Shown one piece after another: positions 5,024-56,793 of a stretch of DNA of 58,030 nt. Source of the DNA: Alphaproteobacteria bacterium (GTDB taxonomy: Bacteria > Pseudomonadota > Alphaproteobacteria > Rs-D84). Numbering within the stretch: the first letter of the stretch is position 1; each line of letters begins with the position of its first letter. The stretch lies in the NCBI GenBank assembly GCA_009784815.1, contig WQXN01000004.1:1-58030 (forward strand), in the 5' to 3' direction. A program made the position numbers and the translations under genes. The notes beneath the pieces are model-generated. The model was not told where the DNA came from and searched no databases. It saw only the letters and a program-made list of their open reading frames with translations.

Positions 5024-5779
5024 ATGACGATGACCAAACAAATGCTTGAACATGCCGCGGGAAAGCAGATGGATGCGCAGAATTTACGCAACTGCTACAG
5101 CATCATAGTCAACAATCATATTATAGGCTGCGAATGCTATTACTGCATGCGCATGGCCGAGCTGACCAAAGAAATCTACTCGAACCCTATCAAAGTGTTG
5201 GGGGGGGGTAATAAACTTGCAGCTGAAATCGAACAGCTTACCGCCACAAACCCGGTAAATATGAACGATGTAATAACCAATTACATAGCAAAAATGGCCG
5301 ATAGTGAAGAATTCAATACGGAAATTTATGAAACTATGGACTATTATGAATCTCTTTGCTATATATCGGCTCTTGAAAAATTGGAAAAGAAATTCGAAGA
5401 ATACGTTTTCAAATGTCAGGCAAACGCTAATCAGGCTCAGAAAGATTATTATAGTCTTATGCCTGCGGTCAAAGAGCTGGCCGAAACCGAAGAAGGCACC
5501 TGTTTTTATGGAAACATAGGCAAAATTCAGAAAACCTTGAAAAATCGCCGCGCCAAAAACTATGTTGAATTCTCTGAAAAACTTGAAAACAGCGAAGAAT
5601 ACCAAGCCGTTGTGCGTTATGCCATAGCCTCTGGCGAAATGGATCAGCAGGTCGAAGCAGCCAAAAAGCGCCTGGTCAAGGCAACTGACGAATATGCTTC
5701 CACTATGCAAGAGCTTACCAAAATCCGCAACGAGCTTTCAACCGTCCGAGCTCACTTCAATATAGGCAAGGTCGCTTAA
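5024..5779 (+). CDS. Coiled-coil protein with in-frame G9 tract, unknown function
   Basis: A 251-residue cytoplasmic protein, not recognised. Residues 24-41 hold a cysteine cluster (C24, then CxCxxC at 36-41), possibly a metal site. From about residue 65 it is highly helical and charged, with coiled-coil character. A run of nine G at 5200-5208 encodes glycines 60-62. With nine bases the frame is open; gain or loss of one base would end translation soon after. GGGGAG lies eight bases before the ATG. A consensus promoter drives it, and the 5782 gene follows two bases after its stop, so the two form an operon. Confidence 0.8.
   Translation: MTMTKQMLEHAAGKQMDAQNLRNCYSIIVNNHIIGCECYYCMRMAELTKEIYSNPIKVLGGGNKLAAEIEQLTATNPVNMNDVITNYIAKMADSEEFNTEIYETMDYYESLCYISALEKLEKKFEEYVFKCQANANQAQKDYYSLMPAVKELAETEEGTCFYGNIGKIQKTLKNRRAKNYVEFSEKLENSEEYQAVVRYAIASGEMDQQVEAAKKRLVKATDEYASTMQELTKIRNELSTVRAHFNIGKVA
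5200..5208 (+). repeat. G9 homopolymer in coding sequence
   Basis: Nine consecutive G inside the 5024 reading frame, which stays open at this length. One of six such tracts in the window, all nine long and all G on the coding strand. Confidence 0.95.
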
Positions 5780-9403: not shown

Positions 9404-10330
9404 TTATGATATTTTGAAATATCGTTTTTTGGCTTTTGCCCCGGATTGAAGGCGAGTATATTTTCTGAACTCACATAAACAGCCCTGTATATCGTGCAGA
9501 CTTACATAATCGCCACCACAATAGTCAGGATTTGCCCATTTTACATCAAACCAATATTTCCCATGTTGTTTTTTCAATAGGGCAAAATATTCTTTTTGAG
9601 ATGCGTGTAAAAAACGACATTTTTCATTTGCTTCTGTTTTGCTCAATTTTTTTCCGAACAAAATTTCTAACCCCCAATGCGCACCTGGCCCAACAATCAA
9701 AAAATCATTTGAAGTATATGGAGCTATATCCGGCTTTCCTTTTGAATTCTTAGAATAAGTGCAATCCAGTAAAATTTGCCCCGATAAGAATGGCCCGGCC
9801 ATAGCAACATATTTTTCAATAATACAAAGCCCATCCGCACCGTCGCCATTTCTTAACTCTATTAGGATTTGTGGCAATTTTGGTATCAGTGCGTTAAGCA
9901 TAAACAATACTTGAACATGTTTATCTTTTGGCCGATGTTTTGTATCAAATGGGTGCGACGATATAAGATAAGCATCTGAAAAAATCGGTCCATCCACACC
10001 ATCTAATTTCTTTTCCAGTTTTTTAACATTAAATGTTTTGGTATTTAACAAGCCGTCAAACAATCTTTCAAATGTATCGCGTTTATTAAAAATACGATAT
10101 GCGATAATGTTTAGTAATTTATCCTCTGGCGATAAATCTGTTTTTATCAGGTATTTTGATATTGCGGTTGTGCCAGAATCAAGTTCTCTATATACATTAC
10201 AAAACTTAAACATAGAAAGCACGGAGTCGGTTGTCCATGGCGCTTTTTTACCCACCACAAACCTATCATGCCAGATTTTTTGGCGGTCGTAAATAAATTC
10301 ATAAAATTGTATTAAATTTGAATCTTGCAT
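9404..10330 (-). CDS. Putative DNA-base hypermodification protein (5-hmdU kinase helical-domain family)
   Basis: A 308-residue protein matching, from memory of the family, the helical domain of phage 5-hydroxymethyl-dU DNA kinases and thymine pyrophosphorylases. Points of similarity are FYEFIYDRQKIWHDRF and PWTTDSVLSMFKFCNVYREL at the N-terminus, YRIFNKRDTFE near 75-90, GPFLSGQILLD and a VGPGAHWGLE segment near 210, and a C-terminal DIQGCLCEFRKYTR. Relatives act in hypermodified-thymine pathways of phages or stand alone in bacteria. GC is visibly lower than in its neighbours, and 18-bp direct repeats flank it, indicating recent acquisition. No Shine-Dalgarno sequence is obvious. Substrate unknown here. 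Confidence 0.68.
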   Translation of the reverse strand: MQDSNLIQFYEFIYDRQKIWHDRFVVGKKAPWTTDSVLSMFKFCNVYRELDSGTTAISKYLIKTDLSPEDKLLNIIAYRIFNKRDTFERLFDGLLNTKTFNVKKLEKKLDGVDGPIFSDAYLISSHPFDTKHRPKDKHVQVLFMLNALIPKLPQILIELRNGDGADGLCIIEKYVAMAGPFLSGQILLDCTYSKNSKGKPDIAPYTSNDFLIVGPGAHWGLEILFGKKLSKTEANEKCRFLHASQKEYFALLKKQHGKYWFDVKWANPDYCGGDYVSLHDIQGCLCEFRKYTRLQSGAKAKKRYFKIS

Positions 10331-10525: not shown

Positions 10526-11572
10526 TTAGAATGGCAGATCGTTCCGGCTAAGTCTTTCATAGACTCTCCGCGCCATTTCACTGGTTCCTTGCATAACGTA
10601 AAGCGCGTCCACAAGCGCAGGGTCGTCAGAAAGCAGCTTTTCACAAGTTTCAAATGCCTCTTCATACTTGCTGCCCGCAATTTCCTTTTTGACTTTTAAG
10701 CCGTCGACCACGCTTTGGACTATGACTTTTGTAATCTCTAACCTGCGCATTTCTAAATCTCTTTCCGCCGCAATCTTATTTAGTTTTTCAATGGCGCTGT
10801 TTATGCCCGTCGACCTGCCTTCAAGTCCTTGCCAAATTTCATAAGCTTTTTTAATTTTGATTCCGTTCGATACTTCCCAAGCGGTTATGTGATTTCTGAT
10901 TTTCGTAATTTCATTTCTAATGATATCTACTTTACAAACTTTTTTGTATTCTAGATCAACCCTCAAAAGTTCGTCCTTATTTCTAAAAAATTCTTCGATT
11001 TTGTCTTTCGGAATAACTTCCCCGGCCTTGGTAAAATAAGTGCATTCGATGCATCCGTTACTGCATTTTCCGCAAGGCTTTATTGTGTTTGAACGACTGC
11101 CGTTGTAATAAAGTTCGCACGCGTTTTGAAGTTTTTCGCGGCGTTTTATTACGGCCCGCTTTTCATCAAACGAAGGCTCGACTTGGATAGCCCAAGTAAG
11201 TTTTTCTTTCAACTCCTCGATTTCATTTTCAAGTTCGACAATACCAAGCTTTTCTTTGGCTGATTCAATTTTAAGATCGGTTAGTTCTTTTAAATCTTTG
11301 GCATAAGCGGATTCCGCCTCGTCAACCAATCCTTGATAATATTCGTATCTGCCTTGTAAATTTTTAATCTTTTGAAGATCGTCGCAAATATCCTCGTCGT
11401 AATTTTCACCCTCAAACACTGCAAGCTTGGTAATTGCTACTACCGCTTCTTCCTGTTGTTTGTTGATAAAATGATCAACCGCTTCCTTATTCCTAACAGC
11501 GGCGGAAAACATTATAAGCAATCTAATCAATTCGCGATTCTTTTCGGGTGAAAGTTTTACGTTTGCTATCAT
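10526..11572 (-). CDS. Coiled-coil protein with cysteine cluster, G9-controlled promoter
   Basis: A 348-residue cytoplasmic protein dominated by long charged helices (about 60-155 and 215-330), probably coiled coil. In the middle, near residue 166, is a CGKCSNGCIEC cluster, a possible zinc or iron-sulfur knuckle. It shares this plan (cysteine cluster plus long helices) with the 5024 product, but I see no clear homology. AAAGGATC precedes the ATG. The promoter spacer upstream contains nine G (11603-11611), so transcription is probably phase-variable. Function unknown. Confidence 0.78.
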   Translation of the reverse strand: MIANVKLSPEKNRELIRLLIMFSAAVRNKEAVDHFINKQQEEAVVAITKLAVFEGENYDEDICDDLQKIKNLQGRYEYYQGLVDEAESAYAKDLKELTDLKIESAKEKLGIVELENEIEELKEKLTWAIQVEPSFDEKRAVIKRREKLQNACELYYNGSRSNTIKPCGKCSNGCIECTYFTKAGEVIPKDKIEEFFRNKDELLRVDLEYKKVCKVDIIRNEITKIRNHITAWEVSNGIKIKKAYEIWQGLEGRSTGINSAIEKLNKIAAERDLEMRRLEITKVIVQSVVDGLKVKKEIAGSKYEEAFETCEKLLSDDPALVDALYVMQGTSEMARRVYERLSRNDLPF

Positions 11573-11596
11573 ATCTGATCCTTTTGCAATTTATGC

Positions 11597-11626
11597 AGTC
11601 TACCCCCCCCCGCTGCAATTTGTCAA
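11597..11626 (-). promoter_or_regulatory. Promoter with G9 tract in the spacer
   Basis: On the minus strand TTGACA (11621-11626) is followed by nine mixed bases, nine G (11603-11611), and the -10-like TAGACT (11597-11602). The spacer is therefore 18 bp; loss of one G would give the optimal 17. The start codon lies 25 bp beyond the -10. The same 9+9 layout occurs at 27425-27454. Confidence 0.82.
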
Positions 11627-11628
11627 TT

Positions 11629-11657
11629 AAAAAGACTCCCTTTTCAGAGAGTCTTTT
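11629..11657 (-). terminator. rplY terminator
   Basis: AAAAGACTC / GAGTCTTTTT on the minus strand (11649-11657 with 11629-11638) enclose a short loop and end in a T-run. The -35 box of the next promoter begins three bases later. Confidence 0.85.
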
Positions 11658-11677
11658 CATAATCACAAACACTATAA

Positions 11678-26778: not shown

Positions 26779-27396
26779 TTAGTGTGACTTTGCGGCTCGG
26801 GCGGCGCGTATATGGGCGGCTCGTTGCGTCGCCCTATCCTTACTGATAGTGATTTTTATACGCTGTTTATTATAACGCGCTTCTTCTCTTTCGAACTGAT
26901 TTTCATCCAAACCAAAAGGTCTGGCCGCTTGCTGCAACCCTTCTACGGCGTCAAGATACGAGTGTTTGGCCGCCACTCGTCTTTGATTGGCCATAAACCC
27001 GTAAATCCCTTCGCTCCGCTCGGCCTGCTCGGCTTTTATTGCGGTCTCAAAAATCAGCTCGCCATAGTTCTTAAATATGGAATCTCTTTCGTCTTGCGTT
27101 ATAAGGATATTCCAGTACCTTTCGTCCAGCGCCGCTATTTTAGCGTCGGCTTTGTTGGCCTTGGATTGGTACCCGAATTCTTTTATAGCTTCTCCGAACT
27201 GAGCCCAAAGAAGCAAACACGACGTCACGGCTCCGCATGCTGATGCAAGCAAAGTCAATTTTGTCGCCTTTCTCTGCTCGGGAGTCATTTTGTAACGATA
27301 GGTTCTGACCACTTTGAAATTATCGAATATATCTTTGACTTCGACCGGTTCGACTATGCCGCCGCCGTGATGTATGCTTTTGTGTCTTGTTGACAT
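26779..27396 (-). CDS. Single-pass membrane protein, paralogue of the 26057 product
   Basis: A 205-residue protein with the start at 27396 (MSTRHKSIHHGGG), preceded by CAAGGAG. A longer frame from 27444 would begin upstream of the -10 box and is rejected. One membrane helix lies near residues 47-65 (LLASACGAVTSCLLLW), followed by a helical domain homologous to the 26057 product. It is the first gene of the pair. Its promoter overlaps the clpB stop codon and holds nine G in the spacer, so both membrane proteins are probably switched together. Function unknown. Confidence 0.72.
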   Translation of the reverse strand: MSTRHKSIHHGGGIVEPVEVKDIFDNFKVVRTYRYKMTPEQRKATKLTLLASACGAVTSCLLLWAQFGEAIKEFGYQSKANKADAKIAALDERYWNILITQDERDSIFKNYGELIFETAIKAEQAERSEGIYGFMANQRRVAAKHSYLDAVEGLQQAARPFGLDENQFEREEARYNKQRIKITISKDRATQRAAHIRAARAAKSH

Positions 27397-27424: not shown

Positions 27425-27454
27425 ATCCTACCCCCCCCCGGCAAGTTTTGTCAA
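27425..27454 (-). promoter_or_regulatory. Second promoter with G9 tract in the spacer
   Basis: On the minus strand TTGACA (27449-27454) overlaps the clpB stop, then nine mixed bases, nine G (27431-27439) and TAGGAT (27425-27430). Spacer 18 bp, the same design as at 11597-11626. Confidence 0.82.
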
Positions 27455-44627: not shown

Positions 44628-44636
44628 CCCCCCCCC
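44628..44636 (-). repeat. G9 tract in the translation-start region of the autotransporter
   Basis: On the minus strand AGAGGAA is followed by nine G and TAAG, then ATG. A length change would alter the spacing between ribosome-binding site and start codon, or the frame of the upstream ATG at 44653. Confidence 0.9.
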
Positions 44637-46454: not shown

Positions 46455-47107
46455 ATGAAAATCACAAAATATCCGCAGTCATGCTTCATGTTGGAAACGC
46501 AGGGGGGGGGAGAATCCTTGTAGATCCGGGCGCGCTGCAATACGACCCGAAATTTTTGGACGACTGGGCCCGCACCGATGCCGTTCTTATAACCCACTGG
46601 CACGTTGATCACTTTAATCATGATGCCATTAAACAAATCAATGCTCCTGTTTACGCCACCGCCGAAGCGGCGAAAAAATATCCCGATATAAAAATCACAA
46701 TCGTAAAACCCGGCGACAAGTTGGAACTTGCGCCAGGAATTATTGCACAAGTCACAAACGCTTTCCACGGATACAACCCTTGGCTGAAAGGCCCGCTGGA
46801 AGTCGAACAAACCGTCGGCTATATGATCGCGGCGGAAGGCAAAAAAATTTATTTCACCGGCGACACCATCTGCTTTAAAAACGAATACAAGTGCGATGTA
46901 CTATGCGCTCCGGTCAGCGGGTATGGCCTTACTATGTCTCCGTTCGAAGTCGCGCTTTTCGCAAATGAATGCGGTGCGGAACTGGTCCTGCCCTGCCACA
47001 TGGACAACCCGAAATACCCGGTTGAAACCGAAAAAGTACAAAGTATATTATCCGCCCACGAAACCAATTGCCGCGTTTTAAAACCAAGTGAATTTGTAAA
47101 CGTCTAA
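46455..47107 (+). CDS. UPF0173-type metal-dependent hydrolase, frame broken at a G9 tract
   Basis: A metallo-beta-lactamase-fold hydrolase of about 216 residues if intact. AAAGGAGCG precedes the ATG at 46455 (MKITKYPQSCFMLET), which is the usual family start. The tract of nine G at 46502-46510 then shifts the frame and leads to a stop within a few codons. Seven or ten G would join it to the rest (GGRILVDPGALQYD, THWHVDHFN metal site, YFTGDT, PCHMDNPKYP). With nine G only an internal ATG at 46481, lacking a good site, opens the downstream frame. Probably phase OFF, cotranscribed with the radical SAM gene. Confidence 0.82.
46502..46510 (+). repeat. G9 tract in the hydrolase gene (out of frame)
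   Basis: Nine G following CA in the sixteenth codon region. The conserved N-terminus and the catalytic body are in different frames at this length. Confidence 0.95.
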
Positions 47108-56454: not shown

Positions 56455-56793
56455 TCATACCCCCCCCCGCGCTACGGACACGCATTTTTCCTGCAACGCC
56501 CTCCCGATGCCGCGCCTCCGATGCGAAGGCTTAACATAAAGCGCTGCCATCCAAGGCGAAAGATCCTGCCTCGTCTTCAGATCATTGTACCAAAGCGACA
56601 CGGTTCCGACCAGCTCGTCGCCCTCGACCGCTATCAGCGTCTGCGGGATCCCGTCCTTGCATATGGAATGCTTCGTGCGATATATGTCCGCGTCAAGCTT
56701 AAATCCCTCGTGCTGACTCCATTCTTCATGCAGAAACTTCGCAACCCCTTCTATGAATTCGGGCCTGTCCGCCAAGTTTAATATTTCTACCAT
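56455..56793 (-). CDS. GNAT acetyltransferase truncated by a G9 frameshift
   Basis: An N-acetyltransferase with start at 56793 (MVEILNLADRPEF) after AGAGGTG. The acetyl-CoA site ALYVKPSHRRRGIGRALQEK is intact. Directly after it, nine G (56460-56468) lead to ARGGV and a TGA stop, giving 112 residues. With eight G the frame would continue through YEKIYLITDHEDLYEKWGWK to a TAA at 56334, giving a normal full-length protein of about 152 residues. The present state is therefore probably OFF or partly active. Confidence 0.85.
   Translation of the reverse strand: MVEILNLADRPEFIEGVAKFLHEEWSQHEGFKLDADIYRTKHSICKDGIPQTLIAVEGDELVGTVSLWYNDLKTRQDLSPWMAALYVKPSHRRRGIGRALQEKCVSVARGGV
56460..56468 (-). repeat. 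G9 tract in the GNAT gene (out of frame)
   Basis: Nine G on the coding strand; eight or eleven would join the N-terminal domain to its C-terminal part ending at 56334. Confidence 0.95.

Follow-up and report, generated by a model that had tools for sequence, protein, structure and literature searches.

Does a run of nine G residues between the -35 and -10 boxes of a promoter make the downstream gene phase-variable, and is a single gene concerned? The question arose from an earlier note on the window analysed here, a stretch of 58,030 nucleotides from an alphaproteobacterial genome of about 0.83 Mb (828 kb). The note read TTGACA, nine bases, nine G and TAGACT, separated by a spacer of 18 bp, as a phase-variable promoter of one gene, designed like the Neisseria porA promoter. 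The layout is exact in the sequence, on the minus strand at 11626-11597 (Table 1). The change from an 18- to a 17-bp spacer on loss of one G is correct arithmetic, and the likeness to porA holds in layout, with a G tract between the -35 and -10 boxes.

The promoter and its gene

The consensus score of 11626-11597 is by itself close to chance level. Ten of the 12 consensus positions match, which is the top score of a 5-kb scan, tied with one other site; sites with at least nine matches number nine in that scan, against 7.8 expected. A single-site score of this kind is unremarkable, so the case for a promoter rests on its surroundings, a terminator and a Shine-Dalgarno sequence, and on the genome-wide family described below. 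The orphan gene 10526-11572 starts downstream of the site, and the terminator of rplY (ribosomal protein L25) lies upstream of it. The terminator hairpin (11659-11628) folds with -18.1 kcal/mol (z = -6.1), and AAAAGGA is separated from the ATG at 11572 by about 6 nt. On these grounds, 11626-11597 is very probably a real promoter.

Table 1. Features of the G9 promoter, its gene and the other G tracts of the window
Feature	Position	Strand	Basis
-35 hexamer TTGACA	11621..11626	minus	sequence and promoter scan
5' half of the spacer, AATTGCAGC	11612..11620	minus	sequence
G9 tract, 3' half of the spacer, abutting the -10	11603..11611	minus	sequence; among the six exact-G9 tracts of the window
-10 hexamer TAGACT	11597..11602	minus	sequence and promoter scan
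Putative Shine-Dalgarno AAAAGGA of the controlled orphan gene	11579..11585	minus	sequence; inference
rplY intrinsic terminator, directly upstream of the -35	11628..11659	minus	fold
Controlled orphan gene (348 aa; helices predicted over most of it; CGKCSNGCIEC cluster)	10526..11572	minus	ORF
Second promoter of the same design, TTGACA-AAACTTGCC-G9-TAGGAT, spacer 18	27425..27454	minus	sequence and pattern search
205-aa gene without Pfam family, under the second promoter	26779..27396	minus	Pfam search
G9 tract inside ORF 5024-5779 (possible translational switch)	5200..5208	plus	tract and ORF list
G9 tract overlapping the Shine-Dalgarno region of an autotransporter-like gene, close upstream of its ATG (44623)	44628..44636	minus	
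G9 tract near the start of metallo-beta-lactamase-fold gene 46455-47107	46502..46510	plus	
G9 tract towards the 3' end of an ORF, acetyltransferase-like by eye; the frame ends just past the tract	56460..56468	minus	

The controlled protein has no Pfam family. A search of 201 genomes of the order gave no credible relative, only two weak partial matches over a helical stretch (E of about 0.002-0.004), and a search of viral contigs found none. The earlier note had described an unknown coiled coil with a CxxC-type cluster. The cluster is there, as C-x2-C-x3-C-x2-C, and helices are predicted; the coiled coil is plausible but not proven, since the structure model from the single sequence has a mean pLDDT of 53.7, a quality too low for a fold search. 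No signal peptide is visible by eye, and the protein is a soluble orphan, not a surface antigen like PorA. The gene after it, 9404-10330, matches PF18723, the helical domain of 5-hmdU DNA kinase (E = 4e-47), and had no viral relative in the viral search.

G tracts across the genome

The window has six G tracts of seven or more, every one exactly nine long, and no A or T run of nine. Over the 793 kb of the genome read as stretches for tract counts, there are 23 G/C runs of length 6, two of 7, eight of 8, 39 of 9 and four of 10. The distribution is thus bimodal, with a trough at 7 and a peak at 9; A/T runs are not lengthened by the same run-length counts. Tracts of at least eight number 51, and 39 of them are exactly G9. 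Third-order Markov genomes matched for size and composition yield 0.4 tracts of exactly G9 and 0.0 G-spacer promoters. That 11626-11597 is an isolated site is ruled out by the six tracts of the window and the 51 of the genome.

About 29 of the 51 tracts are found between -35-like and -10-like hexamers. The tally consists of 27 listed sites (two with weaker -10s), a TTGATA site at C1:58308 and a C-strand site at C2:95281; an automatic classification gives 26, three sites with overlapping TTGA motifs having escaped its pattern. These putative promoters are built alike, from TTGACA, 6-10 bases, G8-10 and TAnnnT, usually with a short leader and a start codon to follow. The family makes the phase-variable promoter of the earlier note much likelier than the single site could, but its single-gene framing is too narrow, the site being one of about 29. 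At C6:750-785, one tract can be read as part of a promoter on either strand, TTGACA-N10-G9-TATTAT one way and TTGACA-N5-C9-N6-TATTTT the other way.

Tracts outside recognisable promoters number 22, and tracts in ORFs 16 by the automatic count. In the metallo-beta-lactamase-fold gene of Table 1, a Shine-Dalgarno sequence precedes the ATG at 46455. Read from there with G9, the frame meets a stop soon past the tract, and the main ORF is in another frame; the gene probably has a translational switch, seen in the OFF state. At C2:162345, G9-TAA closes an ORF of about 1 kb where a glycosyltransferase-like ORF opens in another frame, an arrangement in which tract length could choose between separate and fused products. 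Of the 22 non-promoter tracts of at least eight, 18 have TA after them (the window's examples are 5200-5208, 44628-44636 and 56460-56468), as against about 5% for shorter G runs. Some of these TAs belong to stop codons and some tracts encode a GKT motif (C6:47308), which explains the association only in part.

Spacer lengths were compared for TTGACA promoters closely followed by an ORF, 22 with a tract and 39 without. With a tract, the spacers are 15 bp (three), 17 bp (one), 18 bp (13) and 19 bp (five); without, they are 15 bp (two), 16 bp (nine), 17 bp (19), 18 bp (eight) and 19 bp (one). The difference, taken as 16-17 bp against the rest, is significant (Fisher p = 1.8e-7) and conservative, since the choice among -10 candidates was biased to 17. 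In a genome from another family of the same order, G072, tract promoters have spacers of 18 bp (seven) and 15 bp (four), against a tract-free peak at 17, and the tract-free promoters in the examined stretches of G001 and G003 have their peak at 16-17. It follows that most tract promoters are one base off the optimum and some two, and a single slip would shift many of them towards optimum spacing.

Target genes and distribution of the design

The genes behind the tracts are largely orphans. In a Pfam scan of 20 tract-promoter proteins, 15 were without a match, and the remaining five matched dihydrodipicolinate reductase, formyltransferase, radical SAM, RpiB-like and polyketide-cyclase-like families. 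In the examined stretches of relatives, 3 of 25 tract-promoter genes have homologs; among other genes shorter than 400 aa the count is 283 of 531 (p = 4e-5). The contrast is weaker when genes with tract-free TTGACA promoters are used for comparison, 2 of 22 against 15 of 39 (p = 0.018). A hydrophobic N-terminus is seen in 2 of 25 tract-promoter proteins and in 193 of 689 others. The targets thus appear to be mostly soluble, lineage-restricted proteins and not surface antigens.

The window also has VirB10/TrbI-, VirB9/CagX- and VirB8-like genes in a row (17638-22341), and the genome has matches to the VirD4 and VirB4 families at other places, as does each of the five relatives checked. With such VirB/VirD4-type components in the genome, secreted effectors are a thinkable role for the targets, not a supported one; a test for secreted effectors by C-terminal charge showed a weak shift only (p = 0.012) and is not relied on.

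A search of 201 genomes of the order for the G-spacer pattern gave about 119 matches, including a few sites counted twice, of which 22 are in this genome, 49 in G072, 14 in G074 (of the same other family as G072) and eight in G016. In the same genomes, the C version of the pattern gave nine matches and the reversed version two, and in nearly all promoter tracts the G is on the non-template strand. In G072, many tract promoters have a GTCTA/GTCCA-like motif right after the -10 (loci L144-L156), perhaps an initiator or operator. Tracts in the examined stretches of congeneric genomes are 8-16 long, if a single run of 30 at the end of a contig is set aside. The dapB gene has a G9 promoter in this genome, whereas its homolog in the sister genome G003 (50% identical) has TTGACA-16-TATAAT and no tract. 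As judged from the two promoters, the difference is lineage-specific, whether by gain or by loss of the tract. A literature search on phase variation in this bacterial group found no papers.

Beyond the order, a scan of public genomes gave at least 114 stretches with the pattern. Among the matches listed are gut Treponema, Clostridia, Bacilli, Streptobacillus and Streptococcus. The 80 stretches listed have 83 sites, and 60 of these are followed within 120 nt by an ORF with a Shine-Dalgarno sequence, a descriptive, uncontrolled count. The layout is identical to that found here. The proteins downstream of the listed sites (L162-L241) mostly have a signal peptide or lipoprotein signal at the N-terminus, by eye, in contrast to the 2 of 25 hydrophobic N-termini of this genome. 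These results show the G-spacer promoter to be a widespread device, with this genome set apart by the number of copies and their targets.

Slippery or fixed spacer

The reading we favor, with a probability of roughly 0.7, is that 11626-11597 is a sigma-70-type promoter whose slippery G9 tract sets the distance between the -35 and -10 boxes and serves as a spacer-length switch of the orphan gene, as one member of the set of about 29. Slipped-strand mispairing would occasionally add or drop one G. G8 would give a 17-bp spacer, expected to be stronger, and G10 a 19-bp spacer, expected to be weaker. The consequence would be a heritable, reversible change in transcription of gene 10526-11572, and with some 29 promoters alike, many combinations of expression states could coexist within a population. 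What we infer here is slippage in vivo, its effect on expression and the role of the target. The promoter is probably phase-variable.

Known systems provide precedents. In Neisseria meningitidis porA, tracts of 11, 10 and 9 G give graded expression (PMC3639595), and the spacer is altered in one-base steps. The same features recur here: a homopolymeric tract between recognisable -35 and -10 boxes, and one-base steps that cross the spacer range relevant to RNA polymerase (18 bp, with the tract-free peak at 16-17). However, porA is a single locus and encodes a major surface antigen, whereas here there are about 29 promoters, mainly of 18 bp with G9, and mostly soluble orphans. Control of a surface-exposed protein, usual but not strictly defining in this type of system, is thus not found. 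In Treponema pallidum tp0126, a poly-G also occupies the -35/-10 spacer and works best at 17 bp (PMC7864442); tp0126 is an outer membrane protein gene of another phylum, and no homology is claimed. The T. pallidum tprE/G/J/L genes likewise have short G tracts near the promoter. In tprL, 7-11 G are found in vivo, with 9 the commonest, but the tract overlaps the -10 region instead of setting the spacer (PMC7864442). Campylobacter phasomes resemble this genome in having dozens of G/C tracts of at least eight in a small genome (51 here). They differ in that Campylobacter tracts are mostly in genes, only about 20% of gene groups having intergenic ones (PMC6321876), while more than half of those here are in promoter spacers and 16 in ORFs.

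The main rival to switching is that the G9 spacer is a fixed structural or regulatory element, its length kept constant for promoter strength or for reading by a regulator, such as MerR-type activators, which act on overlong spacers; the promoters would then form a conventional regulon. We consider this unlikely, but several findings keep it alive: the sharp G9 peak, the almost constant placing of the G on the non-template strand, a shared start (TTGACAAA) and an interrupted relative at C2:155918. The latter, TTGACAAATTGCAATGGGGGAGGGTAGACT, is a near copy of the 11626-11597 promoter in front of a 325-aa gene, argC-like by eye. Its tract is interrupted (GGGGGAGGG) and presumably locked in length, and its spacer is nonetheless 18 bp, so 18 bp itself may be a working state. 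Two further points count against a switch: near-uniform G9 might be narrower than free switching of each tract would suggest, and metabolic-looking targets (dapB, formyltransferase) are odd for on/off control. On the other hand, spacers of 15, 17, 18 and 19 bp are all present, a misfit for one regulator that reads spacing; tracts are found within coding regions too; and sister genomes show a wider range of lengths.

A mutational bias that lengthens G runs, with the tracts as by-products of no regulatory role, would account for the 22 tracts outside recognisable promoters. However, more than half of the tracts are in exact -35/-10 register, tract-promoter spacers differ from those of other promoters, and A/T runs are not affected, which makes this explanation very improbable. 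In its favor, mutS (PF00488) and mutL (PF01119) were not found in the 86.8%-complete assembly and are present in all eight other genomes searched. The neighbours of mutS are absent too, so that loss of repair is unproven, a missing contig being the alternative; G072 and G074 retain both genes and yet carry G-spacer promoters. Mismatch-repair loss is thus only a candidate cause. Least probable of all is an assembly or sequencing artefact of poly-G. Runs of 30 G in G003 and 63 G in G007, at or near contig ends (L102:7-36, L159:18764-18869), do look artefactual and inflate raw 8-mer counts in these relatives. The tracts considered here are mid-contig and in exact promoter register, and the same layout is seen in many independently assembled genomes and some isolates. 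A miscounted G length at single loci is possible.

The general picture is of a mechanism of known kind in a new setting, a genome-wide repeated architecture over soluble orphan genes. That a 0.83-Mb alphaproteobacterium carries one promoter design in about 29 copies, about a third of its perfect-TTGACA promoters, is well supported by the sequence. More tentatively, and on balance doubtfully, the copies may form a combinatorial bet-hedging network over soluble lineage-specific proteins. That they operate as a switching network is inferred, and that some targets are slippage-switched secreted effectors is conjecture. Spacer-length switching has so far been a matter of single pathogen loci, mostly for surface antigens. 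Here the architecture is repeated in an uncultured bacterium with a small genome and recurs in the family of G072 and G074, and the public scan points to a common occurrence of the design in gut Treponema, Clostridia and Bacilli. With targets that are mostly soluble and lacking in related genomes, reversible transcriptional noise may diversify more than the targets of immunity. Metagenomes give access to tract lengths, so that the number of co-varying population states would be testable without culture.
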